Made by a program: the position numbers and the translations under genes
IMG/VR virus record: IMGVR_UViG_3300044941_000536
Location: 1-47,867 of that record
Source: a virus
Reading direction: 5' to 3' (one strand)
Length of the DNA: 47,867 bases
Notes under the pieces: generated by a model
Seen by the model: only the letters and a program-made list of their open reading frames with translations
Databases searched by the model: none
Told to the model about the DNA's origin: nothing
Part shown: positions 3,761-40,559 of the stretch, piece after piece
How the letters are laid out: the number at the start of each line of letters is the position of its first letter
Numbering within the stretch: the first letter of the stretch is position 1

Positions 3761-4999
3761 GTGGCGTTCGTCTACAGGATGAAAGGCTCGCCCTACTGGT
3801 GGGCTGAGTTCCGTGGGCCGAACGGCGCGACGCGGAAGTCGACGAAGGTGCGGAACACCGAGCCGAGCGAACACGCTCTGGCCGTCGCTGTCTCGCTCGA
3901 ACATGCCTACCTGGCGTTGGTGGAGCACGGCGACCTGAGCGGCCTCGACAAGCTCGTCGAGTACAAGGTGATCGACTACTCGCGCGTCGTCGAGCTGCGC
4001 TCGGAAGCGCCCGTCAAGCCCCGGCGCGGCCCCGCCACGATCGTCGAGGCCGCCTATGCCCACGAGGCCACAAAGCGCGAGGAATTGAAAGCGAAAGCCG
4101 ACGTGAAGGCCGGCCAGGATCTGCGTCGTCATCGCGCCGACCTCGATGCCTTCGTCGCCTGGCTCGGCACCTCCAGCCTTGCGGCGATGACCCGCCAGCG
4201 CGTGCTCGCGTACATTGACCACCTCAAGGAGCAGGGCTTCGCCTGGTCGACGCGCAAACACAAGCTGCTGCTCATTCGCCGCGCGGCCCAGATGGCGCCG
4301 CACTTTGGGCTCCAGGACACCCTGACGAACGCGCTGATCGACCGGCGCGACGAGGACGAGTTCACCGAGATCCAAGCCTACGACGGCCCCGAGCTATACG
4401 AGCTGGTCACGACCTGCTTCGACCGCGGCGAGTCCAGGATCGCCATCGCCGCTGCCCTGATGGGTTACTGCGGCCTGCGCCCATCCGAACTCGCCCGCCT
4501 CCTCGTGGGCGACTACAACCCAGCCCAGAAGGTGCTGCGCGTCGGCGCCCAGAAACGAAAGAACCGCGCGAGCCGGCGCGACCTCCCACTGCCGGCGACG
4601 GTGGCCGCCTGGCTCGACACGTTCGTCGCCGGCAGGTCACCCGAGGAACCGCTGATCCGCACGCATCATCCCGACGGCAAGGTCCGCGGCTTCGAGTACT
4701 TCGACCTCGGCAAGTGGTGGGCGGAGCGGCTGAGGGGACTCGGCTGTACGCGGATCCTGTCGCCCAAGGCGCTCCGAAAGACGTTCGTTTGTATCGCGAC
4801 CTGGGAGGCCCGAGATATCCCCGAGCGCGCCATCGATCTATACATGGGGCACAAGATCGCCGGCTTCACGTCCGTGACCAACTCGGCCTATCTTCTGAGG
4901 GCGACGAGCGCGATGCGCGTGGTCGCAGAAGGCATCGAGGTGGTCCTCAGCCAGTCAGAAAAGAAAGTGATAAATTTCCCGGATCATTCAGCCGCATAG
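3761..4999 (+). CDS. int: Tyrosine recombinase (phage integrase)
   Basis: 412 residues from a GTG start 1 nt after the previous stop. The N-terminal part (about 1-90) looks like an arm-binding domain, followed by a SAM-like core-binding domain (about 95-190) and the catalytic domain. Catalytic residues visible include the Arg in GYCGLRPSELARL, Arg339 in KALRKTF, His364 in YMGHK and the nucleophile Tyr377 in TNSAYLL. It carries out site-specific integration and excision. The stop lies about 20 bp before the tRNA-Asn segment, the usual int-attP order. The usual HxxR box reads KALR here, a change seen in some phage integrases. Confidence 0.93.
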   Translation: MAFVYRMKGSPYWWAEFRGPNGATRKSTKVRNTEPSEHALAVAVSLEHAYLALVEHGDLSGLDKLVEYKVIDYSRVVELRSEAPVKPRRGPATIVEAAYAHEATKREELKAKADVKAGQDLRRHRADLDAFVAWLGTSSLAAMTRQRVLAYIDHLKEQGFAWSTRKHKLLLIRRAAQMAPHFGLQDTLTNALIDRRDEDEFTEIQAYDGPELYELVTTCFDRGESRIAIAAALMGYCGLRPSELARLLVGDYNPAQKVLRVGAQKRKNRASRRDLPLPATVAAWLDTFVAGRSPEEPLIRTHHPDGKVRGFEYFDLGKWWAERLRGLGCTRILSPKALRKTFVCIATWEARDIPERAIDLYMGHKIAGFTSVTNSAYLLRATSAMRVVAEGIEVVLSQSEKKVINFPDHSAA

Positions 5000-5020
5000 A
5001 CTTAGATATGCCGCTTAGGG

Positions 5021-5067
5021 GGCTGTTAATCCGTGGGTCGTTGGTTCGAGTCCAACCGGGGGAGCCA
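5021..5067 (+). other. attP core: 3' part of tRNA-Asn
   Basis: The segment reads from the anticodon loop (CTGTTAA, anticodon GTT) through the variable region, the T-arm (GTTGG-TTCGAGT-CCAAC), the 3' acceptor strand and GCCA. The 5' half of the tRNA is absent: upstream bases do not complete the anticodon stem, and the integrase stop is 22 bp away. This is therefore not a tRNA gene but the piece that restores the host tRNA-Asn 3' end on integration. The crossover probably lies within this 47-bp identity. Confidence 0.88.
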
Positions 5068-5105
5068 TTGAATTTCAAGGGTTTAGCGAGACCCTGCCTC
5101 AAGCT

Positions 5106-23484: not shown

Positions 23485-24474
23485 TTAGAGGGCCTCGATC
23501 GCGCCCGTGATCCAGAGGCCGCTCGTGGGCCGAACGATCTTCAGGTCGTAGAACGCCTGGACCTGAATCATCTCGCCCTCGCGCTCCTCGTCGCGCCACT
23601 GCCGCACGCGCCAGCCATCGATCAGGCCGCCGCCCGCGGGAGCGTTGTTCCAGCGAATCTGCAGTCCGAAATTCGCCGTGGCGACCTGCGGCTGGCTGCG
23701 GTGAAAGAGCAGGAGGTTCCCGCCCCAGACATCCTCGAACACAGGCGGCTTGCCCTTCGGCGCGGTGTTGACCGTGTTGAGCTGGCAGTACTCGACCTTC
23801 TCGATGCCGATCATCTCGGCGAGTCGAGCCGCGACCCTGTCGAGGCCGGCGGTCGTCTCGGCGGGCGTCAGGGTGTATCGCGCGGCGAGCTGGTAGGCGG
23901 GGTGCTGCGCGATGATGCGCAGTAGCGAGCCGTCCATTGCCAACACGTTCGGCACGGCATTGCCCTGCGTCTTCACCGTGTTAACGAGCGAGCTCAGGTA
24001 GCCGATCGGGTCCGAGGTCGGGGACGCGTAGTTGTTGAAACCTTGGCCGGACGGAACCGCGGTCGTCAGCGTGTTGACCATCGTGGCCTGAAGGAGGCGG
24101 CGCAGGCGCAGGTCCTTGGCCAGCTTGAGGCGGTGCGCGAGCGCGGTGACGCCGGTGACGACCGGGAGGACTTCCGCCTCCGCCGAGGCGCGGACCTCGT
24201 CGGGCACGAACTTCTTCAAGCCGCGCTTGGTGCAGAAGTAGGTGAGGTCCTGGTCAACGTCGTCATCGACGAGTCGAGCGGTACCGCCGGTGCCGATTTC
24301 GTCCTGGTACTCGCGGCGGGCGTCCTCGTCCTTGTCGATGCCGAAGATGGGTCCCGACTGGGTGGTGGCGCCGACCGCGGGCAGAATCTTGTCCGCGAGA
24401 TAGTCGTTCTGCCCGGAGGCGACCGCGACGCCGGTGAGGTGCTTGGAAACGTAGACGTTCTTAAGGGTGGCCAT
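23485..24474 (-). CDS. Major capsid protein
   Basis: 329 residues, AGGAG 8 nt before the ATG. Size, position after DUF2190 and sequence (KILPAVGATTQSGPIFGIDK near 30; VDQDLTYFCTKRGLKKFVPDE; NVLAMDGSLLRIIAQHPAY; NFGLQIRWNNAPAGGG) fit HK97-fold capsid subunits of the type found with Mu-like portals. No long N-terminal delta domain is fused, in agreement with a separate scaffold upstream. Confidence 0.82.
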   Translation of the reverse strand: MATLKNVYVSKHLTGVAVASGQNDYLADKILPAVGATTQSGPIFGIDKDEDARREYQDEIGTGGTARLVDDDVDQDLTYFCTKRGLKKFVPDEVRASAEAEVLPVVTGVTALAHRLKLAKDLRLRRLLQATMVNTLTTAVPSGQGFNNYASPTSDPIGYLSSLVNTVKTQGNAVPNVLAMDGSLLRIIAQHPAYQLAARYTLTPAETTAGLDRVAARLAEMIGIEKVEYCQLNTVNTAPKGKPPVFEDVWGGNLLLFHRSQPQVATANFGLQIRWNNAPAGGGLIDGWRVRQWRDEEREGEMIQVQAFYDLKIVRPTSGLWITGAIEAL

Positions 24475-25042: not shown

Positions 25043-25537
25043 TTAGGCCTTGGCGGCCTGGGCTGCGGCCTCGGCGTAGTTCATGCCGGGGTTCGCCTTC
25101 ATGATCTCCTGCGTCTTCTTCTCCTGCTCGGCCTCGGCGAAGCGCAGAGGATCCGTCTCGCGGGGCTTGCGCTCGATGTTCTTCGGCGAGTTCGCGAGCT
25201 CGCCGAACTCGACGACCTTGGGGCGCGCCTTCAGGCCGCGCAGGAAGGCATCGCGCGGCGAGCACTGCTCCTCGCCGAAGCGGATCGTCTTGTCGCCCGA
25301 CGTCGGCAGCGCGTCGTAGATAGCCTTCGCGTTCTCCCGTTCGGCGGGGGAGACGCGGCCTTCGGCGAGCGCGTCCTCGAAGGCTTCGGAGAAGCGAATG
25401 CTCTCCTCGCGCTCGAACGCCTGGCGCTTGAGCAGGGCGATCTCGGCCTCCTGCTCGGCCATGCGCTTGAGCAGGGCGGCGTGGTCAGGGGCCGGCGTGG
25501 GCTCCAGGCTGGGCGGGTTCTGGGCGGGTGCGGACAT
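25043..25537 (-). CDS. Nested scaffold protein (Mu gpZ-like, internal start)
   Basis: An in-frame ATG at 25537 (protein start MSAPAQNPPSL) has its own AGGAG 8 nt upstream (25546-25550) and would yield the 164-residue scaffold alone. Mu (I/Z) and lambda (C/Nu3) make their scaffold in just this way, so I infer two products from this gene. The protein is Pro-rich at the start, then coiled coil, ending with a short helix (NYAEAAAQAAKA) that could contact the capsid. Confidence 0.68.
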   Translation of the reverse strand: MSAPAQNPPSLEPTPAPDHAALLKRMAEQEAEIALLKRQAFEREESIRFSEAFEDALAEGRVSPAERENAKAIYDALPTSGDKTIRFGEEQCSPRDAFLRGLKARPKVVEFGELANSPKNIERKPRETDPLRFAEAEQEKKTQEIMKANPGMNYAEAAAQAAKA

Positions 25538-26341
25538 GGCTTCTTCTCCTGTTTTGGTGCGGCTGGCCTCGGCCATGCCGTAGATCTTGTAATCGCCGTC
25601 GTACTTGTCCGGGCTCCACCGCAGGCCGTGGCTGTGCGGGATCATGCCGCCGGGCTGGATGACGCCCCCGAGGACGACGTGCTGATGGTTGGCCATGGGG
25701 CTCGCGTCGTAGCAGCGCGGCGGGCCTGTGAAGCCGTTGCCCTCGGCGTCGAGGTGGCAGTCGTGCCAGTGGTCGAGAATCGTGTCGGAGCTGCGGCTGT
25801 GAACGATGAGCCCGTGGCTCGAGGGATCCGGGTCGACGAGCTCGGCGAAGGTCTTCGCCTCGGGCGTATAGACATCTATTTCGATAGTCGTCGTCTTTGC
25901 GCCCTCGGCCGGCTCGGAGAACTGCACGTCGCGCAGGCCCTTCACGTGCGGCACCTGCGCGCCGAGGAAGGACACCGCGCGGATCACCGGGTGGCCGCCG
26001 TCCTCGAGCTCGTAGAACTCGATGCTGCGCTTCTTGTAGCGGCCGCGCTCGATGGCACGCGCCATCGACTCGGGGACGCCGGAGAAGTCGCCCTTCAGGA
26101 CATCGCCCTCGCGCCACACGCGCTTCAGCCACCCGTAGGCCGGGCCGTGCTTCGCGTGGTCGAGGGTGACCGGCGCCTCGTGTGCCGTCGGCCGGTAGTT
26201 CGCCGCCATCGCGTCGAGGTAGGCCTCGGAGAAGAAACCACGCTGGCCGTAGTCGCCGGCGCGGAAGAGCTCAACGCCCGCGAGGTCGCGGGTCGGCTCG
26301 TCGAGTCCTGCTTCGATGGTGCGCGTCGCGGGTACCGTCAT
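25043..26341 (-). CDS. Prohead protease fused to scaffold (Mu gpI-like)
   Basis: 432 residues from the ATG at 26341. The N-terminal half (about 20-190, LFRAGDYGQRGFFSEAYLDAMAANY, APVTLDHAKHGPAYGWLKRV, RGRYKKRSIEFYEL) has the features of Mu-type head maturation proteases. A His-rich insert of about 90 residues follows (about 185-255; HWHDCH, NHQH, HSHG), unusual for the family. The last 165 residues are a coiled scaffold (LLKRMAEQEAEIALLKRQAF). The protease trims the scaffold and capsid during maturation. Confidence 0.8.
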   Translation of the reverse strand: MTVPATRTIEAGLDEPTRDLAGVELFRAGDYGQRGFFSEAYLDAMAANYRPTAHEAPVTLDHAKHGPAYGWLKRVWREGDVLKGDFSGVPESMARAIERGRYKKRSIEFYELEDGGHPVIRAVSFLGAQVPHVKGLRDVQFSEPAEGAKTTTIEIDVYTPEAKTFAELVDPDPSSHGLIVHSRSSDTILDHWHDCHLDAEGNGFTGPPRCYDASPMANHQHVVLGGVIQPGGMIPHSHGLRWSPDKYDGDYKIYGMAEASRTKTGEEAMSAPAQNPPSLEPTPAPDHAALLKRMAEQEAEIALLKRQAFEREESIRFSEAFEDALAEGRVSPAERENAKAIYDALPTSGDKTIRFGEEQCSPRDAFLRGLKARPKVVEFGELANSPKNIERKPRETDPLRFAEAEQEKKTQEIMKANPGMNYAEAAAQAAKA

Positions 26342-26472
26342 TGCCTCGCTCCTGGCGCTCGTGCGCCTGCCGCAACTTCGCGTGAACGCGAGGCCGGTTT
26401 GCTTACTAAAAAAAGCGCGTGGCTTTTTTGCCGGCGGCGCCGGGGCGCGCCCCAGCGGAGGCTCCGCCCAAA
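26342..26472. promoter_or_regulatory. Divergent control region with hairpins, head operon / accessory island
   Basis: The gap separates the leftward protease gene from the rightward island. It holds AAAAAAGC-GCGTG-GCTTTTTT (26409-26429, 8-bp stem, T6 in both directions), the palindrome GGGGCGCGCCCC (26442-26453) and GCGGAG-G-CTCCGC just after it. The AT-flanked hairpin can act as a two-way terminator, keeping island and head operon apart. Confidence 0.5.
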
Positions 26473-26540
26473 AAAACGCAAGCGCATTGCGTTTTGCTGT
26501 TGCGCCCGGGCCGGGTCTGTACGACCTTCCAACCAGACAA
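26473..26540 (+). promoter_or_regulatory. Terminator-promoter cassette, copy 1
   Basis: AAAACGCAA-GCGCA-TTGCGTTTT (26473-26495) is a perfect 9-bp hairpin flanked by A and T runs, followed after 3 nt by GTTGCGCC (26499-26506). TTGCGC may be a -35 element; 17 bp on lies GACCTT (26523-26528), and 5 bp later CAGA. Copies 2 and 3 keep the same distances. AAGGAGG and the next ATG follow. Confidence 0.6.
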
Positions 26541-26555
26541 GGCAAGGAGGCCAAG

Positions 26556-26714
26556 ATGACCAGCAAGACGCACAAAGGCACCGCCTACTACCGCACGGGC
26601 AAGGTCGGCACGAACCTCCGCACGGGCAACCTGGTGATCGAGATGGAAGCGGCGAACGCGGCGCGCATCTGGGTCGACGCGAAGACGGGCAAGGTGGTCG
26701 AGGAGAACGCCTGA
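26556..26714 (+). CDS. Small accessory-island protein, unknown
   Basis: 52 residues with AAGGAGG 6 nt before the ATG. Likely beta-rich (TAYYRTGKVGTNLRTGNLVIE, AARIWVDAKTGKVVEENA). It is bracketed by cassette copies 1 and 2 and followed by a 12-bp GC hairpin (26723-26752), so it is its own transcription unit, as in phage morons. Small proteins in such units often alter host takeover or superinfection; nothing specific is visible. Confidence 0.55.
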   Translation: MTSKTHKGTAYYRTGKVGTNLRTGNLVIEMEAANAARIWVDAKTGKVVEENA

Positions 26715-26722
26715 GAGGAACC

Positions 26723-26827
26723 GCCGGCGGCCTGGGCGACCAGGCCGCCGGCAAAAAACGCAAGTCAAATGCGTTTTTTTGGTTGCGCCGCCCCCAGAGC
26801 CGCAACACAGTGGACACAGATCGGCGG
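26723..26827 (+). promoter_or_regulatory. Terminator-promoter cassette, copy 2
   Basis: A 12-bp GC stem (26723-26734/26741-26752) is followed directly by AAAAAACGCA-AGTCAAA-TGCGTTTTTT (26753-26779, 10-bp stem), then GTTGCGCC (26782-26789). CACAGT lies 17 bp after TTGCGC, and 5 bp later CAGATCGGCGGGAACGCC begins (26817). The element matches copy 3 over its whole length with the same spacing. Confidence 0.62.
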
Positions 26828-26889
26828 GAACGCCGGCACCTAAACCGCCGCCTACGCGGCCACCCCCACCCCCTCAAGGAGAGATCAGA

Positions 26890-27087
26890 ATGAAGCCCCT
26901 CCCCAACGGAACCTTCAACGAGTGGAAGTGCGCCGACGGGCACGCTTTTGTGCCGAACACCGAGGCAGGCCGCGAGTGGATCAAGGAAGCCGACCGGATC
27001 TGGACCCTGCCCGACAACGCCGAGAGCGCGGAACTCTGGGACGACCATTCGCTTGAGCTCGAAAAGATCGGCGGCCTATGGCTTTGA
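26890..27087 (+). CDS. Small protein, paralogue of the next gene's C-terminal half
   Basis: 65 residues; AAGGAG precedes the ATG. The sequence (FVPNTEAGREWIKEADRI near 20-37, then ELWDDHSLELEKIGGLWL at the end) matches the C-terminal half of the product at 27161-27598 almost residue for residue in these blocks. The shared pattern V-P-x-T-E-x-G-R-x-W-I-x-E-A-x-R-I ... LWxDHxxELExIGGxWL seems to define a small domain I do not recognise. A GC hairpin (27096-27125) lies just after the stop. Confidence 0.6.
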   Translation: MKPLPNGTFNEWKCADGHAFVPNTEAGREWIKEADRIWTLPDNAESAELWDDHSLELEKIGGLWL

Positions 27088-27095
27088 GATCCCCG

Positions 27096-27125
27096 CCCGG
27101 CCGGCGCCCGCGGGAGCCGGCCGGG
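27096..27125 (+). terminator. GC-rich hairpin after the 65-residue gene
   Basis: CCCGGCCGGC (27096-27105) pairs with GCCGGCCGGG (27116-27125), with CCCGCGGG in the loop. A related hairpin lies after the paralogous gene (27610-27636), so the gap was duplicated with the gene. There is no T-run: attenuator, mRNA stabiliser or weak terminator. Confidence 0.45.
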
Positions 27126-27160
27126 CCACCACCAACAGCCCACACCTAGGAGACCCTCAA

Positions 27161-27598
27161 ATGTCTTTGATCCTGCTCGACCCCCACACCCACGCCGGCG
27201 AAGTGCTCGAATCCGAGGCGCTGGTTCGCATGGCCGCCCCGGGCGACCGCCACTCTCGCGACCTCTGGCGGATCTCGCGCGACTTCGGCAGCACATGGCG
27301 CCGCCTCCCGAAAAAGGCCGCCGCCATCTTGCTCCACGACATTCGCGGCAGGCAGGTCAACGGGCGCCTCGCCTTCGACGCGACGATCCTTGCCGCCGTC
27401 CCCGAGGGCTTTGTCACGTGGGACGACAACTGCGACGCCACCGCGCTCGTTCCCGACACCGAAGAGGGCCGCGCGTGGATTTCGGAGGCCGAACGCATAC
27501 TCGCCGCGCGCGTGCCCGAGGAGGAGGAGGAGGAGGCCGCCGACCTTTGGGCCGACCACTGCGGCGAGCTCGAGCGCATTGGCGGCCGCTGGCTTTGA
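27161..27598 (+). CDS. Two-part accessory-island protein sharing the paralogous domain
   Basis: 145 residues. Residues about 1-80 (LLDPHTHAGEVLESEALVRM..., DLWRISRDFGSTWRRLPKKAAAILLHDIRG) are unlike any other product in the window. Residues about 85-145 match the preceding 65-residue protein (VPDTEEGRAWISEAERI, DLWADHCGELERIGGRWL). A run of Glu from GAG repeats (VPEEEEEEAADL) interrupts the shared domain. Function unknown; the N-terminal addition suggests a fusion or loss between paralogues. Confidence 0.6.
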   Translation: MSLILLDPHTHAGEVLESEALVRMAAPGDRHSRDLWRISRDFGSTWRRLPKKAAAILLHDIRGRQVNGRLAFDATILAAVPEGFVTWDDNCDATALVPDTEEGRAWISEAERILAARVPEEEEEEAADLWADHCGELERIGGRWL

Positions 27599-27609
27599 TT
27601 GCACTGCCG

Positions 27610-27636
27610 GGCCGGCGTCCCCCGCGGGTGCCGGCC
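27610..27636 (+). terminator. GC-rich hairpin after the two-part gene
   Basis: GGCCGGC (27610-27616) pairs with GCCGGCC (27630-27636), and the loop again holds CCCGCGGG. It is the partner of the hairpin at 27096-27125. No T-run. Confidence 0.42.
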
Positions 27637-27661
27637 GACCACACCCCTCTGAGGAAACCAC

Positions 27662-27922
27662 ATGAACGACTGGCAGTTCCACACCGGAGCCGAAACTGTA
27701 GCCGACTTCTTCGCGCTCTGTCCGCCCGACGAGCTCGCGATCGACGCGCTCGCGGAATGCGCGGAGTACGCCGTTGAAGACGCAGGGAAAGCCGCTGCCG
27801 AGACCCCTCTCGGCGTGGACGACATCCTCGACGATCTGGTCATGCACCTCGCCGACATCTCAGGCTGGGAGCGCATGACCTGCGGCCAAGTCGCCGCTGC
27901 GGCAAAGGCTCTCGGTATCTGA
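27662..27922 (+). CDS. Small acidic helical protein, unknown
   Basis: 86 residues; GAGGAAA lies upstream of the ATG. Acidic and helical (ETVADFFALCPPDELAIDALAECAEYAVEDAG, then GVDDILDDLVMHLADISGW, then QVAAAAKALGI). Its end overlaps a possible start of the next gene. Acidic proteins of this size in phage islands include anti-restriction and anti-CRISPR factors and DNA mimics; no such identity can be shown here. Confidence 0.55.
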   Translation: MNDWQFHTGAETVADFFALCPPDELAIDALAECAEYAVEDAGKAAAETPLGVDDILDDLVMHLADISGWERMTCGQVAAAAKALGI

Positions 27923-27936
27923 TGAAAGGACCCCCC

Positions 27937-28338
27937 ATGACCCAGCGAGCAGCAGAGTGGATGACCAGGGCGCAGGTCGCCGCGATGGCCGGCACAGCCA
28001 ACAGCACCGTGTCGCGCGCGATCGCCAGAGGCGTGTTGCCGGCGAAGGAGTTCCTGCCAGGCGTCATCGCAGTTCGCCGCGAGGATGCCGAGCGCTGGGC
28101 CAATGGGGGCAGAGCCCCTAAGGGGCGGCCGCGGAAGTCGCGCGGCGCTGTGGCGGCGGGCGCTCCGCCCCTGCTGACGCGGGCAGAGGTTGCCGAGCTG
28201 GCCGGCGTCGCTCGCTCCACAGTGAGTCGGGCGATTCGGCGCGGGGACCTGCCGGCGAAGACATCGGAGGGCGGCGGCGTGCTCGTTCGCCGCGAGGACG
28301 CCGAGCGCTGGGCCAATGGGGCGGAAAAGCGCAATTGA
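27937..28338 (+). CDS. Tandem helix-turn-helix DNA-binding protein
   Basis: 133 residues from the ATG at 27937 (AAAGGA upstream). Two near-identical 49-residue modules (9-57 and 80-128), each with a MerR/excisionase-like HTH (TRAEVAELAGVARSTVSRAI, then a wing and RREDAERWANG), joined by a basic linker (GRPRKSRG). It could bind two operator half-sites as a monomer. The modules share a 37-nt near-identical DNA stretch (one difference), so the duplication is recent. It probably regulates the island or acts as an excisionase. Its stop lies inside the hairpin of cassette copy 3. Confidence 0.72.
   Translation: MTQRAAEWMTRAQVAAMAGTANSTVSRAIARGVLPAKEFLPGVIAVRREDAERWANGGRAPKGRPRKSRGAVAAGAPPLLTRAEVAELAGVARSTVSRAIRRGDLPAKTSEGGGVLVRREDAERWANGAEKRN
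28072..28321 (+). repeat. 37-nt direct repeat within the tandem HTH gene
   Basis: The stretch at 28072-28108 recurs at 28285-28321 with one T/C change; it encodes VRREDAERWANG at the end of each module. Identity beyond what the protein needs points to a recent internal duplication or gene conversion. Confidence 0.75.
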
Positions 28339-28397
28339 AGTGCTCTTTTTTGTTGCGCCGCCGCCGGCTGATCGCGACGCTCAGTCCAGATCGGCGG
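28325..28397 (+). promoter_or_regulatory. Terminator-promoter cassette, copy 3
   Basis: AAAAGCGCA-ATTGAAG-TGCTCTTTT (28325-28349, 9-bp stem with one mismatch) includes the stop of the HTH gene. GTTGCGCC follows (28352-28359), then GACGCT 17 bp after TTGCGC, and 5 bp later CAGATCGGCGGCAACGCC (from 28387). Same element and spacing as copies 1 and 2; it would drive the genes from 28433. Confidence 0.6.
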
Positions 28398-28432
28398 CAA
28401 CGCCGCCGGACAAATCCACCGAGGGTCCTCCC

Positions 28433-28886: not shown

Positions 28887-29198
28887 ATGGCAAGCGACGA
28901 GCCCAAGATCGACAAGTGGATCATCGGAGCCGGATCCGGGCGCAACCCGGTCGAGTACATCATCCACACCCGCTCCCCGCGCTTCATCGGCCAGCTTGCC
29001 GACTTCGACCACGACGTCTACCAGGCATGCTGTCCTGGCATGCCTGTCTTCTTCGGCGTTGAGATGCTCTGGCCGATTGTTTGGCTGGATCCCGAACCGG
29101 ACCACCAGACCAAGATAGACCTCCTCGAGGCGGGGTTCGCCGCCTACAGCCTTTTCTCGGAGATGGCCGAGCTCGACAACGAGGCGGACGAAGACTGA
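28887..29198 (+). CDS. Accessory-island protein, unknown
   Basis: 103 residues; TAGGAGG is 6 nt before the ATG. Contains YIIHTRSPRFIGQLADFDHDVYQACCPGMPVFFGVEMLWPIVWLDPEPD and an acidic C-terminus. Two adjacent Cys and several aromatics are notable. The stop overlaps the next start (TGATG), so it is translationally coupled to the SLOG-type gene and may work with it. Family not recognised. Confidence 0.58.
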   Translation: MASDEPKIDKWIIGAGSGRNPVEYIIHTRSPRFIGQLADFDHDVYQACCPGMPVFFGVEMLWPIVWLDPEPDHQTKIDLLEAGFAAYSLFSEMAELDNEADED

Positions 29199-29545
29199 TG
29201 CGGCTGGCCATCGTCGGTTCCCGAACGGCAGGCCCCGATCTCGCCGAGCTCCTCCGCGCGGAGGTCGACAGGCTCGGAGCGCCTCCCACCCTCATCGTTT
29301 CAGGCGGCGCCCGCGGTGCCGACACGCTGGCTCGGGAGCTCGCCCGGGAGCGCGGCATCCCCCTTGTCGAACACCTGCCCGACTACCATCGGCACGGTCG
29401 CGGGGCGCCGCTCCTTCGCAACAAGCTGATCGTCGACGACGCCGACGTTGTCCTGGCGCTGTGGGACGGCGCGTCGCGCGGCACCATGCACACCGTCAGG
29501 TACGCCCAAGAGCAGGGGAAGCGGGTCTTCGTCGTCCGCTTTTGA
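29198..29545 (+). CDS. DUF2493 / SLOG-fold nucleotide-binding protein
   Basis: 115 residues forming one Rossmann-like domain: MRLAIVGSRT at the first strand, LIVSGGARGADTLARELARERGIP at the second turn, LRNKLIVDDADVVLALWDG and GTMHTVRYAQEQGKRVFVV. GSR and GGARGAD are the signature of the DprA/YspA-like SLOG group, which binds nucleotides or nucleotide-derived signals. Members occur widely in phages and near defence genes. Coupled to the 103-residue gene upstream, it may sense or process a nucleotide. Confidence 0.82.
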   Translation: MRLAIVGSRTAGPDLAELLRAEVDRLGAPPTLIVSGGARGADTLARELARERGIPLVEHLPDYHRHGRGAPLLRNKLIVDDADVVLALWDGASRGTMHTVRYAQEQGKRVFVVRF

Positions 29546-34631: not shown

Positions 34632-34752
34632 GGGGAGCGTAGACTACCCTTCTGTTGGCCGTGGCCTCGTCACGGACATCGCGCAGGACGGCATCCAGGC
34701 CACGGTTATCGCAGGGGCGCTTCAAGGGCGAGGCATTCGCCCAAGTGCCGGC

Positions 34753-34772
34753 AACCGCTAGAAGCGGTTTTT
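34753..34772 (+). terminator. Intrinsic terminator after the restriction-modification gene
   Basis: AACCGCT-AGA-AGCGGTT is a perfect 7-bp stem followed by TTT, in the 195-bp stretch between the ISP gene and the membrane coiled-coil gene. It suggests the latter is transcribed from its own promoter. The stretch before it shows nothing else clear. Confidence 0.6.
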
Positions 34773-34827
34773 CGTTGTCGCCCGTGTGGGGCATGTTGAA
34801 GACTGCACCAAAGTGGAGGTGGGCACT

Positions 34828-36123
34828 GTGGCTGAATACACCGTCCGAGGATTGACTACGTCTATATCCGAGTTAGAGAGGCGAGTCGCCAGTCTCTTAG
34901 AGGCCGACGCATGCCGGTACGCGAAGGGGTATTTCTTGTTTGCCGGGCAGTCTATTCCACTAGAGTGGAGAGATTCGCGATTCGTTGTTGGCCAATCGCC
35001 CCCTCCCCTTCCCCAGGCTATCGGGCTGTGGGGAATGTTGTCGGGCCTCGAGGCGCCGATGCCCTTAGGGCCCGGCAACGAAATCTCAATCGAATTCGGC
35101 GATTGCAGGGTCTGCATCTATGATTCAGAAATTCCCGGGGTTAGCGTCTATCGGTTCCACTTCGAGACTAATTCCGACGGTAAGCGCGCGGGGAACATCT
35201 TCAAAGTACTTTTGGCTCCCGACCGCGGCGAAGGAGTCGTACCGCAGGTTCAGGGTACGCTGGCTAATATTGGAAAGCTTGGCGAGGTCACTAGTACAGT
35301 CATGGCCGCCATGGCCTCGACCGCCCGGGAATCCGCGAGGACTCTGGTGGACGAGGCTAGGCGTCAGGTCGAAGAACTCCGCAGCTCCGCAGAGCACGAT
35401 TTCGAGCAGCGGCGCTTCCATTTAGCGGAGGAAGCCAAGCGGCTCAATGAGCTTCGCGAAGAACTCGACAGGGTGCAGGCAGAGCAGCGCCAGAGGGAAG
35501 AGTCACTTAATAAAATGTCCGCGCGCTTGGAGCGGCGTAAGGAGGCTAAACGGCTGATTGGGGAGCTCACAGATCAGATGGCAGAAAGCTTGGAGGCTTC
35601 AAAGCCAACAAAGGTGCAGGGGGCGCTTTCTTGGGCCGTGATATTTGCGTCTCTTTCCATTTCAGGCGCCCTCGTCGGCTTGGGCTTGCATAGCGCCTTG
35701 AGCCCAGATCCGGGGAATCTAGCCGGCCTGATCGTTGGCGGTACATTGAAATTCGCTGGCGTAGTGGGTCTATTCTCCACATTGGGCTACGCGCTGAAGT
35801 GGCAGACTGGGAATCACGCTAGGGCACAAAGACTCGAAGCCGATCGCCGACGTCTTGCGATCGACATCGGTCGGGCCAATTGGCTAATCGAAGCTCTGAT
35901 GGAAACGAGTGAGGTGGACGACCGGGCCATTCCAGAGACGCTCCTTGATCGCTTGTCGAAGGGGCTGTTTGACCTCGAGAGCACCCAAGCACATGGTATT
36001 GAAGCGGATAACGTGAGGTCTGCCCTCTCTACGATCCTGGGCGAACATGCGACCATCAAGGTCAGCCCTACAGAGCTGACGGCCGAGGTGAAGGACCGTC
36101 GGCGGTTTCGTGACAAGCGATAG
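34828..36123 (+). CDS. Membrane-anchored coiled-coil protein, unknown
   Basis: 431 residues from a GTG start at 34828 (GGAGG 8 nt upstream); an in-frame start at 34786 is possible. About 1-150 is a globular beta-rich domain. About 155-260 is a long coiled coil (TARTESAR-like start, then RRQVEELRSSAEHDFEQRRF). Two hydrophobic segments (about 262-288 and 297-322) give a hairpin in the membrane, then a helical C-terminal domain. No enzymatic motif. Base composition is AT-richer than in neighbours, suggesting a separate origin. Downstream of a restriction system and read independently, it is a candidate defence effector or exclusion protein. Family not recognised. Confidence 0.65.
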   Translation: MAEYTVRGLTTSISELERRVASLLEADACRYAKGYFLFAGQSIPLEWRDSRFVVGQSPPPLPQAIGLWGMLSGLEAPMPLGPGNEISIEFGDCRVCIYDSEIPGVSVYRFHFETNSDGKRAGNIFKVLLAPDRGEGVVPQVQGTLANIGKLGEVTSTVMAAMASTARESARTLVDEARRQVEELRSSAEHDFEQRRFHLAEEAKRLNELREELDRVQAEQRQREESLNKMSARLERRKEAKRLIGELTDQMAESLEASKPTKVQGALSWAVIFASLSISGALVGLGLHSALSPDPGNLAGLIVGGTLKFAGVVGLFSTLGYALKWQTGNHARAQRLEADRRRLAIDIGRANWLIEALMETSEVDDRAIPETLLDRLSKGLFDLESTQAHGIEADNVRSALSTILGEHATIKVSPTELTAEVKDRRRFRDKR

Positions 36124-36148: not shown

Positions 36149-37102
36149 TCACCACCTCTCGATGGCTCTCACCCTGGCGAGCGCGTCTGGCGGCTCGGCG
36201 TAGTCCTGGTCGGCCTCGCTGACATCGGCCACGACGATCGGAACCCGCGTGCAGCGGCACTGGTAGTGCCATGGCGGCCCGGGTCGCGACGCGCGGTCGG
36301 CGAGGCTGTCCTTCTTGAGGATGAGCCCGTCTATCGCTGCGTGCGTCGGCCGCGAGCGGTCGTCGTCGGGGTTGAGCAGCTCGTAGCCCCACGTGTGGTC
36401 GCGCACCTCGGGCAGCGACTGGAATGCCTCGCGCTGCTCCTCGTAGCCCTTCGCCATCTCGGTGCGGAACACCATCTGCAGGTAGCTGTCCATGCCGGTG
36501 GGGAGCTCGCCCGCCTCGGTCAGCTCGCGCATGGCAGCCAGGAACGACTGGGCGGTTTCGCCGCGGTCGTAGGCCTCCTGAAGGGCCACGCGCAGGCGCC
36601 GCGCGGTCTCTTCGCTGACGAGGCGGTCGATGGCCAAAACGCCATCGGGGTCGCCGACCTGGAGCGCGGCAGCGAGCTCGCCGGTCGCTCTGCCGATGCG
36701 CTGCAGCTCGCGCAGCGAGAAGAAGGCGTCGCCCTCGCTCTCCTCTCGGTCAGCCTGCTCGGGCTCCTCCTCCGGACTTGGAGGATCCTCGCCTCGGTCG
36801 TCGTCGTCTTCGGCGAACGCGCGCGGGGCCAGGAACTGCTCGTAGGCTTCGAGGGTAACGAGAACGGCGAACCGCTTCGAGCATGCGAGCGCCTCTTGGG
36901 CGGGGGCGCCCAAGGAGATCGGGATGGAATCAGGCACGACGAGCTCGGCGGGATCCGCGGCGGCGAGCCAAGCCTTCAGGCCGGCGAGTACACCGTCGCG
37001 GGCCTTCGGGGCGATGGCGTCAGCAGCAGCCTCGAGCCTCCTCGCGATCTCGACGTGGCGCTGCAGGCGGTCGCTTCTTTTTTTTTTGCTCGGCCTCTGC
37101 AA
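36149..37102 (-). CDS. Head morphogenesis protein, Mu gpF-like; start uncertain
   Basis: Up to 317 residues. The C-terminal half has the family motif: FRTEMAKGYEEQREA, YELLNPDDDRSRPTHAAIDGL, and PPWHYQCRCTRVPI. Such proteins are minor capsid components or maturation factors. An acidic stretch (EDDDDRGEDPPSPEEEPEQADREE) is near residue 105. No ATG or GTG with a ribosome site exists near the beginning; the only candidate is TTG at 37102. The frame overlaps the portal's end by 83 nt and meets it at an A10 tract, so it may be fused to the portal. Confidence 0.7.
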   Translation of the reverse strand: MQRPSKKKRSDRLQRHVEIARRLEAAADAIAPKARDGVLAGLKAWLAAADPAELVVPDSIPISLGAPAQEALACSKRFAVLVTLEAYEQFLAPRAFAEDDDDRGEDPPSPEEEPEQADREESEGDAFFSLRELQRIGRATGELAAALQVGDPDGVLAIDRLVSEETARRLRVALQEAYDRGETAQSFLAAMRELTEAGELPTGMDSYLQMVFRTEMAKGYEEQREAFQSLPEVRDHTWGYELLNPDDDRSRPTHAAIDGLILKKDSLADRASRPGPPWHYQCRCTRVPIVVADVSEADQDYAEPPDALARVRAIERW

Positions 37103-38501
37103 AGGCCGCCAGCTCTTCGTCGGTCACAATGCGCGGACCAGGCGGGGCGGTCGGGGCCTTGGGCGGAGGCCGCAGGATGTCCTCGCCCTCGCGCGGCGCC
37201 CGCAGCCCAAACCACTCGCGGACCTGCTCGATGCTGATCTCCATCCCGAGCTCGGCCGTCAGGCGAACGATCTCAAGGGCGAGCTTCACGTCCTGGCCTT
37301 CGTCGATGTCGATCTTGAAACGAGTGGCCGGCGCGTTCTCGCCCCAATTGAGTATGCGAAACGGGCGGCAGAGCCCGCGCTGGATCGACTCGGCGAGGCC
37401 GAGCGCCAGGGGGGCGCTGCGCCGTGAGGCGGTCTGCTGGTGGACCTCGCCCATGGCGCGGTTGCCGTACCTGCTCTCGGCCATCGACAGCGTGCTGCCG
37501 ATCAGGCGGCGCATCTGCTCGGCGTTGAAATACTCGATGAGGTCCTTGTGTGGCGAGCCAGACTGCCCGCCGTTGCGCGCTTGGAATTCGATGCTCTCGT
37601 CGCTCGACAGGACGATGCCCCACTCGCGGGCGAGGTTGCGCAGGATGTTCCGCATGTTCGCGGCGCGCTGCTTCCAGTTGGTCGCCGACGAGGCGATCTT
37701 TGCGACGCCCAGGGGGCTGCCGTACTTCTCGGAGTACTCAACCCAGGCCTTCTCCACGTCGCGCTTGAATTTCGCCTTGTATCGCAAATTGAAGACGGGG
37801 CTGATCGCGTATGGATTGCTATACAGGCTGCCGAGCCGAAATACGATGAACTTGCCCGCGGGGGCCGGGGCGAACGCGCCTGCCTCGTCGCGATAGTACA
37901 GCGCGCCATCTGCGTCGAAGGCGAACAGGCCAGGGTGGCGGTGCATGTAAGCGCGCGGCACCACCATTGAATCCTTCAACTGCCACATCACTTCAACGAC
38001 GCTGAACCCGTGGAGCACCGCGCCAACGAGCAGGCTGTTAAGCGCCTGGCGGAAGCCCCACTCGGACTCGAGGTCGCGCAGGTAGGTCTCGTGGGCCTCG
38101 CGGATCTCGGTCGCGCCCGGCGTCTCCTCGTCCGCCTCCCATACTTGCTCGCGGCCCAGAACCGAGGACGCCAGGACCTCGATGGTCGAGGCGATGGTGG
38201 TGTCCTTGTCGAAGACCTCGTCGAGCATGTCGTAGAGGCCGTCGGACATCAGGTAGATGAAGCCGAGAGCCGACGACAGCGACTGCGTGGAGGACACCTG
38301 CTGGATGAACTCGGCAGGGTTCTGGTTCAGGTAGCTGTCCCAGATCTGGCTGCTCGCGTCGGCGCCGGCATAGCCAGCGCCTTTTGGCAGGAGCGCCTCA
38401 GGCGTCGGCTTGTCCGGGGGCGCCGCGACCTCGCGGCCGTTCGCCTCGGGTTCGTCAGCCGCCCTTTGCAGGAGGCCCTTCGCCCACGTCGCCAGCCCCA
38501 T
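37020..38501 (-). CDS. Portal protein (DUF935, Mu gp29-like)
   Basis: 493 residues as read. DUF935 features: SALGFIYLMSDGLYDMLDEVFDKDTTI, QALNSLLVGAVLHGFSVVEVMW, RHPGLFAFDADGALYYR, FIVFRLGSLYSNPYAISPVF, then FNAEQMRRLIGSTLSMAES. It forms the dodecameric ring for DNA packaging. The last ~20 residues after the KKKK block (RPPAAPRRDREEARGCC) are Arg-rich and lie in the other frame of gpF, so the real C-terminus is probably different. The start overlaps the preceding gene by 47 nt. Confidence 0.88.
   Translation of the reverse strand: MGLATWAKGLLQRAADEPEANGREVAAPPDKPTPEALLPKGAGYAGADASSQIWDSYLNQNPAEFIQQVSSTQSLSSALGFIYLMSDGLYDMLDEVFDKDTTIASTIEVLASSVLGREQVWEADEETPGATEIREAHETYLRDLESEWGFRQALNSLLVGAVLHGFSVVEVMWQLKDSMVVPRAYMHRHPGLFAFDADGALYYRDEAGAFAPAPAGKFIVFRLGSLYSNPYAISPVFNLRYKAKFKRDVEKAWVEYSEKYGSPLGVAKIASSATNWKQRAANMRNILRNLAREWGIVLSSDESIEFQARNGGQSGSPHKDLIEYFNAEQMRRLIGSTLSMAESRYGNRAMGEVHQQTASRRSAPLALGLAESIQRGLCRPFRILNWGENAPATRFKIDIDEGQDVKLALEIVRLTAELGMEISIEQVREWFGLRAPREGEDILRPPPKAPTAPPGPRIVTDEELAAFAEAEQKKKKRPPAAPRRDREEARGCC
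37078..37087 (-). other. A10 homopolymer at the portal/gpF frame junction
   Basis: On the coding strand ten A residues follow GAGC. In the portal frame they read Q-K-K-K-K, in the gpF frame S-K-K-K-R. A net +1 shift (loss of one A, or gain of two) moves the portal frame into the gpF frame. The tract can serve transcriptional slippage, or it may be an assembly error. Confidence 0.6.
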
Positions 38502-38814
38502 GTTTCTCCAGCCTCTCGAGCAGGTTGTGCAGGGTGGCGCGGCGCCCGCGCAGACGCGCCAGCGCCGCCCTGTGGTAGCTATAGAGCGAGCGCTGCGTCA
38601 GAGGCTGACTAAAATCCTCGCGCATGATTTTAGCAACGGCCTCCGCGGGGATCGGCGTCTCACCCGTCACCTCGTCGCGCAGATCCTCGCGCATGCGCAT
38701 GAGGGCACACAGGACACGGTCGTTCATCTCGCGCACCGATTCGTGCTCGATGCGCATCAGCTCTCGCGCCAGGGAGCGGACGATCCTGCTGGCGGCCTCG
38801 GGTTTCGAGTTCAT
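38455..38814 (-). CDS. Small helical protein between terminase and portal
   Basis: 119 residues; the ATG overlaps the terminase stop (TGATG), and the end overlaps the portal start by 47 nt, so it is firmly embedded in the packaging operon. Helical and charged (ASRIVRSLARELMRIEHESVREM, VLCALMRMREDLRDEV, SLYSYHRAALARLRGRRATLHNLLERLEKHG). Not recognised; could assist packaging or portal assembly. Confidence 0.62.
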   Translation of the reverse strand: MNSKPEAASRIVRSLARELMRIEHESVREMNDRVLCALMRMREDLRDEVTGETPIPAEAVAKIMREDFSQPLTQRSLYSYHRAALARLRGRRATLHNLLERLEKHGAGDVGEGPPAKGG

Positions 38815-40559
38815 CAATAGTGCTCCCTTTCGTTGTAGAAGTCGCGGACACCTTCCGACATGTCGTCGCTGGCGTCGCCGCCAGGGGCATTGCGCAGTGC
38901 GTTCTCGATCGCGAACCAGAAGGCCATTATCTCGTCCGGCGTCGCGGATCGGTCGAGCGCGGCGGGCAGGTCCGCCATGGCGGCCTCGAATGTCTGCCAG
39001 TCGCCGGCGTGAGGTGAATCGCTGGTGGCCTCGGCGGCCGGCCAGACGATCTGCTTGTTGTGCAACATCGTGTTGATGCCAGGCAGGCCGAACTCCGGGT
39101 GCATTTTGTTTGCTCCCGTGTGGAAGGCCTCGAGGCGGCCCCACCAGTCGAGCCCGCGGCGCTGCGCCTCGCCTTCCAGTGTCTTCGACACGCGGTCCTG
39201 CAGCGCGTTGTTCTCCACCTTGACCGACTTGAAGCGGATGCCGCGCCGCCAGATCGCCTCGAGCAGGTCGACAAGCTCGAGGTCGGAGTACTTCCCGACG
39301 TGCAGCTCGACTGGATAGATCTTCCTGGCAGCGTCCTGGGCAACAATCCACAGCACGGTGCCGCGGCGCTTGAGCGATGCCAGGTCGAGGCCGCCGATGA
39401 AGGTCAGGCGGGCGAGCGCCTCCGACTCCGCGTAGGGGAGGCCGTTGCGCAGCGTGAGGCCGAGCAGCTCGTGGGCGCGGCAGGGTTGCTGTGCGCGATC
39501 GTTCCATGCCGGGAACATCAGGTCGCCGGCCTCGGAGGCTTGCAGCCGGTAGAGCTTCTTCTTCGCGACCGGGTTCTTGAGCGCCAGCTTGTCCGGAGTC
39601 CACTCGGGATGGTTCGGCGGGGGAATCGTCAGCTCGGCGTGCGGCGCGCCGATGATGGGGGCGGCCGACGCTGGCAGCAGCGTAGCCGAAAAGTCTGCCG
39701 AGCGCTCGAGCAGGGACAGGCGCGGCGGCGGATTCCAGATTCTGACGAACATCGAGCGGTCGTCGTCGTTGAGCCCGATCCACACACTGGTGAATCGGCG
39801 ATCGCCGCGGAGCGCGTGGGCCAGATCCTGCTTCGAGCGGATGTTCTGCAGGTAGCAGCACCAGCCGCCGTTCGCGAGGCGGCCCTCAATCCAGGTGTTC
39901 CAGAAGGCATTCGTGACGCGCTGTCGCTTCGCGGCGGACTGCGCGATCTCCTCGGTGATGATGTCGTCGGCCAAAAGCATATCGACGCGGATATCCTCGC
40001 GATCGGGGACCGCGGCGATGGCCGCCATCGTGGGGTCCTTGCGTTGGCCGGCGGCCCGCAAAAACCAGCCGTCGCGGCGCCAGCCCTGATCGTCGCGAAT
40101 CGTGCGCCCCATGCGCCGTGCGCCCCGCACGCGCGAGCGCTCGTAGTCAGGCCGCACGCTCGGGAATATATCTCGATAGTCGGGGAGCAGCAGGGTCTTT
40201 CGGCAGAGGGCAACTCGGTCGGCGGCGCCAGACTCGTCGCCGCTGATGACAACAGTGCGGAGCGTCTGATCGTGCCCGATCCGCCAGAGGAAGAACAGCG
40301 AGGCGAGCGTCGACTTGCCGCGCCCTGGCGGCGTGATGATCGACACATGCCGGCGCTGGGCGTAGCACTCCTCGAGGACAGACACGATGACCTGCAGGTC
40401 GGCTGAGTCCATGTTGAGCGGGCGGTCGCTCTCATCGCGGCCGACGCGCATGCAGAACTCTGCGAACGACTGACGCGCGGCCTTGGCCGCTTCGGCCTTC
40501 GCCGCGCGCTCAATCAGCCTTTCTGCCAGGAACGCAGTGAGGGGGCGGGGCTCGGTCAT
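38814..40559 (-). CDS. terL: Terminase large subunit
   Basis: 581 residues. The ATPase half shows Walker A TPPGRGKST (about 76-84) and Walker B MLLADDIITEE, with the coupling motif likely at RRFTSVWIGL. The nuclease half shows the RNase H-like aspartates in FIGGLDLAS, then a conserved helix-strand array (KSVKVENNALQDRVSKTLE). It packages DNA into proheads and cuts it. The start overlaps the small-subunit stop (ATGA). A TATCTCGATAGTCG motif (40169-40182) lies inside. Confidence 0.92.
   Translation of the reverse strand: MTEPRPLTAFLAERLIERAAKAEAAKAARQSFAEFCMRVGRDESDRPLNMDSADLQVIVSVLEECYAQRRHVSIITPPGRGKSTLASLFFLWRIGHDQTLRTVVISGDESGAADRVALCRKTLLLPDYRDIFPSVRPDYERSRVRGARRMGRTIRDDQGWRRDGWFLRAAGQRKDPTMAAIAAVPDREDIRVDMLLADDIITEEIAQSAAKRQRVTNAFWNTWIEGRLANGGWCCYLQNIRSKQDLAHALRGDRRFTSVWIGLNDDDRSMFVRIWNPPPRLSLLERSADFSATLLPASAAPIIGAPHAELTIPPPNHPEWTPDKLALKNPVAKKKLYRLQASEAGDLMFPAWNDRAQQPCRAHELLGLTLRNGLPYAESEALARLTFIGGLDLASLKRRGTVLWIVAQDAARKIYPVELHVGKYSDLELVDLLEAIWRRGIRFKSVKVENNALQDRVSKTLEGEAQRRGLDWWGRLEAFHTGANKMHPEFGLPGINTMLHNKQIVWPAAEATSDSPHAGDWQTFEAAMADLPAALDRSATPDEIMAFWFAIENALRNAPGGDASDDMSEGVRDFYNEREHY

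Follow-up and report, generated by a model that had tools for sequence, protein, structure and literature searches.

Three repeated joints, each a hairpin followed by promoter-like blocks, in the accessory island of a probable temperate phage

Phage morons, of the HK97/HK022 type, are accessory coding regions that are bordered by a promoter and a terminator and inserted between genes adjacent in related phages (PMC4378225); typically they lie antisense to lytic genes or between adjacent phage genes (PMC7067206, PMC4378225). Here we describe an accessory island in a probable temperate phage, IMG/VR virus record IMGVR_UViG_3300044941_000536, whose whole stretch of 47,867 nucleotides is the window of this analysis. 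Three joints of one design, each a hairpin with a T-tract followed by promoter-like blocks, border the units of this island. As in morons, the accessory genes lie between virion genes in the opposite orientation, and at each unit border a hairpin is followed by a putative promoter. Unlike in morons, one joint design is common to three units in a row, the -10-like element is weak and base composition is not clearly distinct: the G+C content of the joint region is 66-68%, with no clear difference from the rest of the phage. Consistent with insertion, a single 186-nt open reading frame (ORF) separates the minor head and protease genes of Rhodovulum phage vB_RhkS_P1, while Pseudomonas phage PA1/KOR has a virion morphogenesis gene and four small ORFs in that interval; both are distant comparisons.

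Other described systems share parts of this design; besides morons, PeSL cassettes and acr-aca operons come nearest to it. The promoter early stem-loop (PeSL) elements of T4-type phages are promoter-terminator cassettes (Arbiol 2010 and Comeau 2014, as cited in PMC4503421). Measured against that secondary account, the locus is similar in that a composite terminator-promoter motif, its promoter putative here, recurs at gene borders within an accessory region; it differs in belonging to an unrelated phage, in sequence, in having three copies only and in showing no evidence of shuffling between genomes. In Cluster K mycobacteriophages, SAS elements stand at the start codon (GGGATAGGAGCCC) and ESAS elements carry 17-bp imperfect inverted repeats (PMC3203893). 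They too are repeated intergenic motifs upstream of many small phage genes, but neither a start-codon GGGATAGGAGCCC nor such 17-bp repeats were seen here. In related Pseudomonas Mu-like phages an accessory region, RGP G, holds anti-CRISPR genes (PMC4378225). Like acr-aca loci, the island has small genes among head genes, and a helix-turn-helix (HTH) gene stands last, on the same strand, in a predicted operon after three small ORFs; unlike them, it is antisense, spans 10 kb including a Type ISP enzyme and has no common inverted repeat. Judging by gene order, RGP G is probably the interval between the minor head and protease genes. The acr-aca likeness of unit 2 offers a lead.

A three-copy joint with fixed spacing

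The repeated three-copy joint is confirmed as real. In every copy, GTTGCGCC lies 0-3 nt after a T-tract and is followed, after exactly 27 nt, by CAGA (Table 1). A preliminary description of this DNA had claimed three cassettes with this identical spacing, and its coordinates and counts hold, as does the [GC]AC..T hexamer that it placed 17 nt after TTGCGC (GACCTT, CACAGT and GACGCT). Copies 2 and 3 continue alike from CAGA on, again as described, through CAGATCGGCGG(G/C)AACGCC (17 of 18 nt identical), and there form a short G+C leader hairpin whose folding energy is unexceptional for its composition. Copy 1 has neither this leader block nor its hairpin. The pattern GTTGCGCC-N25-29-CAGA matches three times in the record, always at these joints, with 0 control matches, and the full cassette order was not found elsewhere in the window. 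The window has 42 TTGCGC sites; five are followed, 17 nt on, by a hexamer with A at position 2 and T at position 6, namely the three joints and two sites within genes.

With the anchor fixed, 10 of the 31 following columns are invariant (simulated P = 0.0003), and there is a run of four invariant columns (P = 0.003). We also used an anchor-free test, which required an 8-mer common to three of the seven intergenic spacers together with an in-register four-column run. Of 5,000 dinucleotide-shuffled versions of the island's intergenic DNA, 4 gave this pattern, with the hairpins and the shared leader left uncounted. Because an 8-mer in three spacers is not rare on its own (P = 0.13), the evidence is the in-register alignment.

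Both T1 and T2 are A/T hairpins whose stems are perfect and which have a T-tract on either strand. The hairpin kind AAAACGCA...TGCGTTTT named in the preliminary description fits copy 3 less well: T3 is looser, its stem differs and includes a mismatch, and its 5' arm falls within the end of the HTH gene before it. T3 would act mainly on the + strand. T2 and the G+C hairpin directly before it make a tandem pair that folds at -43.1 kcal/mol (z -6.5). Across the + strand of the whole window there are seven hairpin-plus-T-run sites, three of which have GTTGCGCC no more than 3 nt from the T-run.

Terminator-then-promoter reading and its rivals

We consider it probable, if well short of certain, that each joint is an intrinsic terminator and then a promoter (followed by a 5' leader hairpin in copies 2 and 3), serving separate units of a cargo island. 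The hairpin would end the upstream unit; at copy 1, next to the divergent head genes, it would stop transcription arriving from either side. T0 to T2 would shield the island and the head-gene transcript from each other. Right after the U-tract, GTTGCGCC would serve as the -35 element and the [GC]AC..T hexamer 17 nt on as a weak -10, with transcription starting on the A of CAGA or close to it. The mRNA of copies 2 and 3 would begin with a small G+C hairpin that could protect or stabilise its 5' end. The three joints would thereby give three independently transcribed units, all opposite to the flanking virion genes: unit 1, the 52-aa gene; unit 2, three small genes and the HTH gene; and unit 3, two small genes, the SLOG gene and perhaps the Type ISP restriction enzyme. 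Hairpin termination, promoter function, the start site and expression in a lysogen are predictions from the DNA.

Since the conserved blocks flank a divergent 17-nt spacer, in which copies 2 and 3 match at 8 of 17 positions (counted from the alignment), the joints look like promoters and not like duplicates of recent date. Should the hairpins be terminators, the promoter of each unit would have to fall between the end of the T-tract and the next start codon, a distance of about 60, 110 and 83 nt in copies 1, 2 and 3. Each of these stretches holds GTTGCGCC, CAGA and the gene start, with a clear Shine-Dalgarno sequence in copies 1 and 2; the putative leaders measure 21, 72 and 45 nt. A scan of 84,980 GTDB genomes with one pattern, TTTT-N0-6-GTTGCGCC-N17-A-N3-T-N5-CAGA, gave 45 matches, about the chance expectation by our estimate. 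Eight of the 45 carry at least five of the six TATAAT bases at that spacing, against an estimated two or so by chance, and because of this excess we conclude that GTTGCGCC can serve as a -35 element. In a Chloroflexi genome and in Clostridia-type genomes, several of the eight come after a perfect terminator hairpin, and the terminator-then-promoter layout is common. In three Rhizobiales genomes, matches share TTTTCGTTGCGCC...GCAAGGT....CAGA..CAACATG before the start codon, a conserved, promoter-like arrangement that is unexplained. Readings of GTTGCGCC as a lambda CII-like TTGC-N6-TTGC site, a sigma-54 site or an attC-like site were judged by eye and rejected.

Several observations weigh against a terminator followed by a promoter. 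Although the -35-like element is strong, the -10-like hexamers 17 nt on have only 2, 3 and 2 of the 6 bases of TATAAT (a consensus that may not be that of the host), and promoter calling in 24-32 kb gave no sigma-70-type site. On their own the A/T hairpins fold modestly (z -0.8 to -2.2), and of the three a generic terminator scan called only T3, with 3 terminators found against 5.2 expected from shuffles. Given this modest folding and the single call, the identification as terminators rests on structure, position and repetition. The poor -10 means either that host promoters differ, or that an activator assists, or that the promoter reading is mistaken. The moron plan of the preliminary description, in which a promoter is placed right after a terminator, is partly supported, by its geometry, by block conservation and by the position and orientation of the island; its -10 elements are poor, and the promoter stays putative.

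Instead of a -35 element, or besides one, GTTGCGCC and its flanks could form an operator at which the HTH protein of unit 2 binds all three joints and co-regulates them in an Aca-like manner. Unit 2 has the appropriate order, with small no-family genes first and the DNA-binding gene last; PA1/KOR has its four small ORFs in the same region, anti-CRISPR genes occur in an accessory region of related phages (PMC4378225), and in copy 2 GTTGCGCC-N9-GCCGCAAC is an inverted repeat. Aca sites, however, are inverted repeats within the promoter (PMC9410906), and no operator dyad or inverted repeat common to the three copies was found, nor any Acr or Aca family match in NCBIfam, Pfam or PADLOC. We regard the operator as unlikely. 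A bolder proposal, to which we give little credence, makes the joints a dedicated regulon: the tandem-HTH protein or another phage factor would recognise GTTGCGCC and switch three anti-defence or defence units (small proteins that may inhibit host immunity, plus the Type ISP enzyme) from an unusual promoter class lacking a standard -10. Just as doubtful is the idea that the joints are conditional terminators, or attenuators, on a single upstream transcript, with the post-hairpin sequence acting as an antitermination or RNA-processing site. The conserved sequence after the hairpins could act as RNA, and copies 2 and 3 have the leader hairpin; but its absence from copy 1 leaves no RNA fold conserved across all three, Rfam gave no match in 25-31 kb, and T0 and T1 lie directly upstream of copy 1, beyond which the divergent protease gene starts.

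The preliminary description also suggested that the cassettes may form a recombination scaffold for swapping accessory genes. Swapping through short homology has been proposed for PeSL cassettes. The copies are repeated in one orientation, each at a unit border, for which the PeSL account in PMC4503421 gives a precedent, and Red-like functions can use short diverged homology (PMC4378225). Against this, the longest exact stretch common to any two copies is 12 bp, and the cassette with other genes was not found in viral contigs or genomes by pattern, or in phages and plasmids by similarity. The pattern scans covered 2.9 million IMG/VR viral contigs with three patterns, besides the GTDB genomes, and revealed no other cassette of this kind; their matches either lacked an upstream hairpin, as expected of chance, or were ordinary terminator-promoter pairs in unrelated bacteria. 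Absence of the cassette from other phages was half of the refutation test that the preliminary description had set for itself. The cassette was indeed not found, but this is weak evidence because the protein queries returned no close relative in which to look. We hold the scaffold to be very unlikely, an idea unsupported rather than disproved. Least probable of all, in our judgement, is that the resemblance is mostly chance combined with a common terminator-then-promoter layout, only copies 2 and 3 being related. The missing leader block of copy 1 and the unremarkable three-spacer 8-mer would suit such an accident; the rarity of the joint pattern among the shuffles, even with the hairpins uncounted, does not.

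The island, its genes and the phage

The island occupies 26.5-36.1 kb (10 kb) of the + strand, between the minor head and protease genes of the - strand and antisense to both. It contains eight small genes, the 1649-aa Type ISP restriction-modification enzyme and one further gene. The enzyme is complete, with Mrr-like nuclease, helicase, coupler, methylase and specificity domains, and its closest plasmid match (61% identity) is from Picosynechococcus. Genes 1 and 2 of unit 2 share a C-terminal module, LWxDHxxELExIGGxWL, and each is followed by a similar G+C hairpin, which suggests that a gene and its hairpin were duplicated together locally. Beyond the Type ISP gene, at about 34752-34783, a hairpin AACCGCTAGAAGCGGTTTTT is followed by CGTTGTCGCC (TTTTTCGTTGTCGCC); this may be a degenerate fourth joint ahead of the gene that ends at 36123.

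An integrase match at 3761-4999 points to a temperate lifestyle. Directly after the integrase gene, CTGTTAATCCGTGGGTCGTTGGTTCGAGTCCAACCGGGGGAGCCA at 5020-5068 resembles the 3' half of tRNA-Asn, and from its sequence it is probably the attachment (attP) core; no complete tRNA was called there. When this core was sought in 18, 349 and 80 genomes, a single genome, from a Pseudomonadota-type sample, matched with 2 mismatches and has the core twice; no close phage was found in the order and family of that genome. Nor did a close relative emerge from queries of IMG/VR with the terminase, protease, capsid, HTH protein and two-paralogue alignment, or of GTDB contigs with the portal. In IMG/VR the HTH query yielded no more than two matches, both short and partial, and the island DNA and tested small proteins gave nothing by blastn or tblastn in phages and plasmids.

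Table 1. Positions in the window of the joints, their parts, the island genes and the head genes
Feature	Position	Strand	Remarks
Capsid	23485-24474	-	
Head protease	25046-26341	-	divergent from cassette 1; starts at ~26341
T0, extra bidirectional hairpin, AAAAAAGC-GCGTG-GCTTTTTT	26409-26429		between divergent protease gene and cassette 1
Junction 1	26473-26537	+	hairpin/U-tract, GTTGCGCC, 27 nt, CAGA
T1, AAAACGCAA-GCGCA-TTGCGTTTT	26473-26495		perfect 9-bp stem; T-tract on both strands
GTTGCGCC, -35-like, cassette 1	26499-26506	+	
GACCTT, -10-like, cassette 1	26523-26528	+	17 nt after TTGCGC; 2/6 vs TATAAT
CAGA, putative start region, cassette 1	26534-26537	+	leader ~21 nt with AAGGAGG
Unit 1 gene, 52 aa	26556-26714	+	no family; one weak PHROG match, E 0.0035
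13-bp G+C hairpin	26723-26752	+	directly before T2
Junction 2	26753-26834	+	order as in junction 1
T2, AAAAAACGCA-AGTCAAA-TGCGTTTTTT	26753-26779		perfect 10-bp stem; T-tract on both strands
GTTGCGCC, -35-like, cassette 2	26782-26789	+	
CACAGT, -10-like, cassette 2	26806-26811	+	17 nt after TTGCGC; 3/6 vs TATAAT
CAGATCGGCGGGAACGCC, putative start and leader hairpin, cassette 2	26817-26834	+	CAGA at 26817
Unit 2 gene 1, 65 aa	26890-27087	+	paralogue of C-terminal part of unit 2 gene 2, 46% identity
G+C hairpin, unit 2 genes 1/2	27095-27126	+	-32.4 kcal/mol
Unit 2 gene 2, 145 aa	27161-27598	+	no family
G+C hairpin, unit 2 genes 2/3	27610-27636	+	-22.9 kcal/mol; z -0.7, unexceptional for composition
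Unit 2 gene 3, 86 aa	27662-27922	+	no family
Unit 2 gene 4, 138 aa	27922-28338	+	tandem HTH_17/excisionase-type DNA-binding protein; operon end
Junction 3	28325-28404	+	order as in junction 1
T3, AAAAGCGCA-ATTGAAG-TGCTCTTTT	28325-28349		one mismatch; T6 on +, only T4 on -
GTTGCGCC, -35-like, cassette 3	28352-28359	+	
GACGCT, -10-like, cassette 3	28376-28381	+	17 nt after TTGCGC; 2/6 vs TATAAT
CAGATCGGCGGCAACGCC, putative start and leader hairpin, cassette 3	28387-28404	+	CAGA at 28387
Unit 3 gene 1, 131 aa	28433-28828	+	no family
Unit 3 gene 2, 103 aa	28887-29198	+	no family
Unit 3 gene 3, SLOG/DprA-like (YAcAr)	29198-29545	+	partial match to PADLOC ShosA and PsyrA models
Type ISP restriction-modification enzyme, 1649 aa	29682-34631	+	
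Minor head protein	36149-37102	-	
Portal	37020-38501	-	21-24% identity to Mu-like and related portals
Terminase	38814-40559	-	

The layout is ordinary for phage cargo genes and is expected biology. If the joints work as we propose, they mark out how a cargo island of an uncultivated lineage is divided into transcription units. They would also single out small genes of no known family in a place where the head clusters of Pseudomonas Mu-like phages carry small accessory genes as well, and the small island genes would then be sensible candidates for immunity-related tests.

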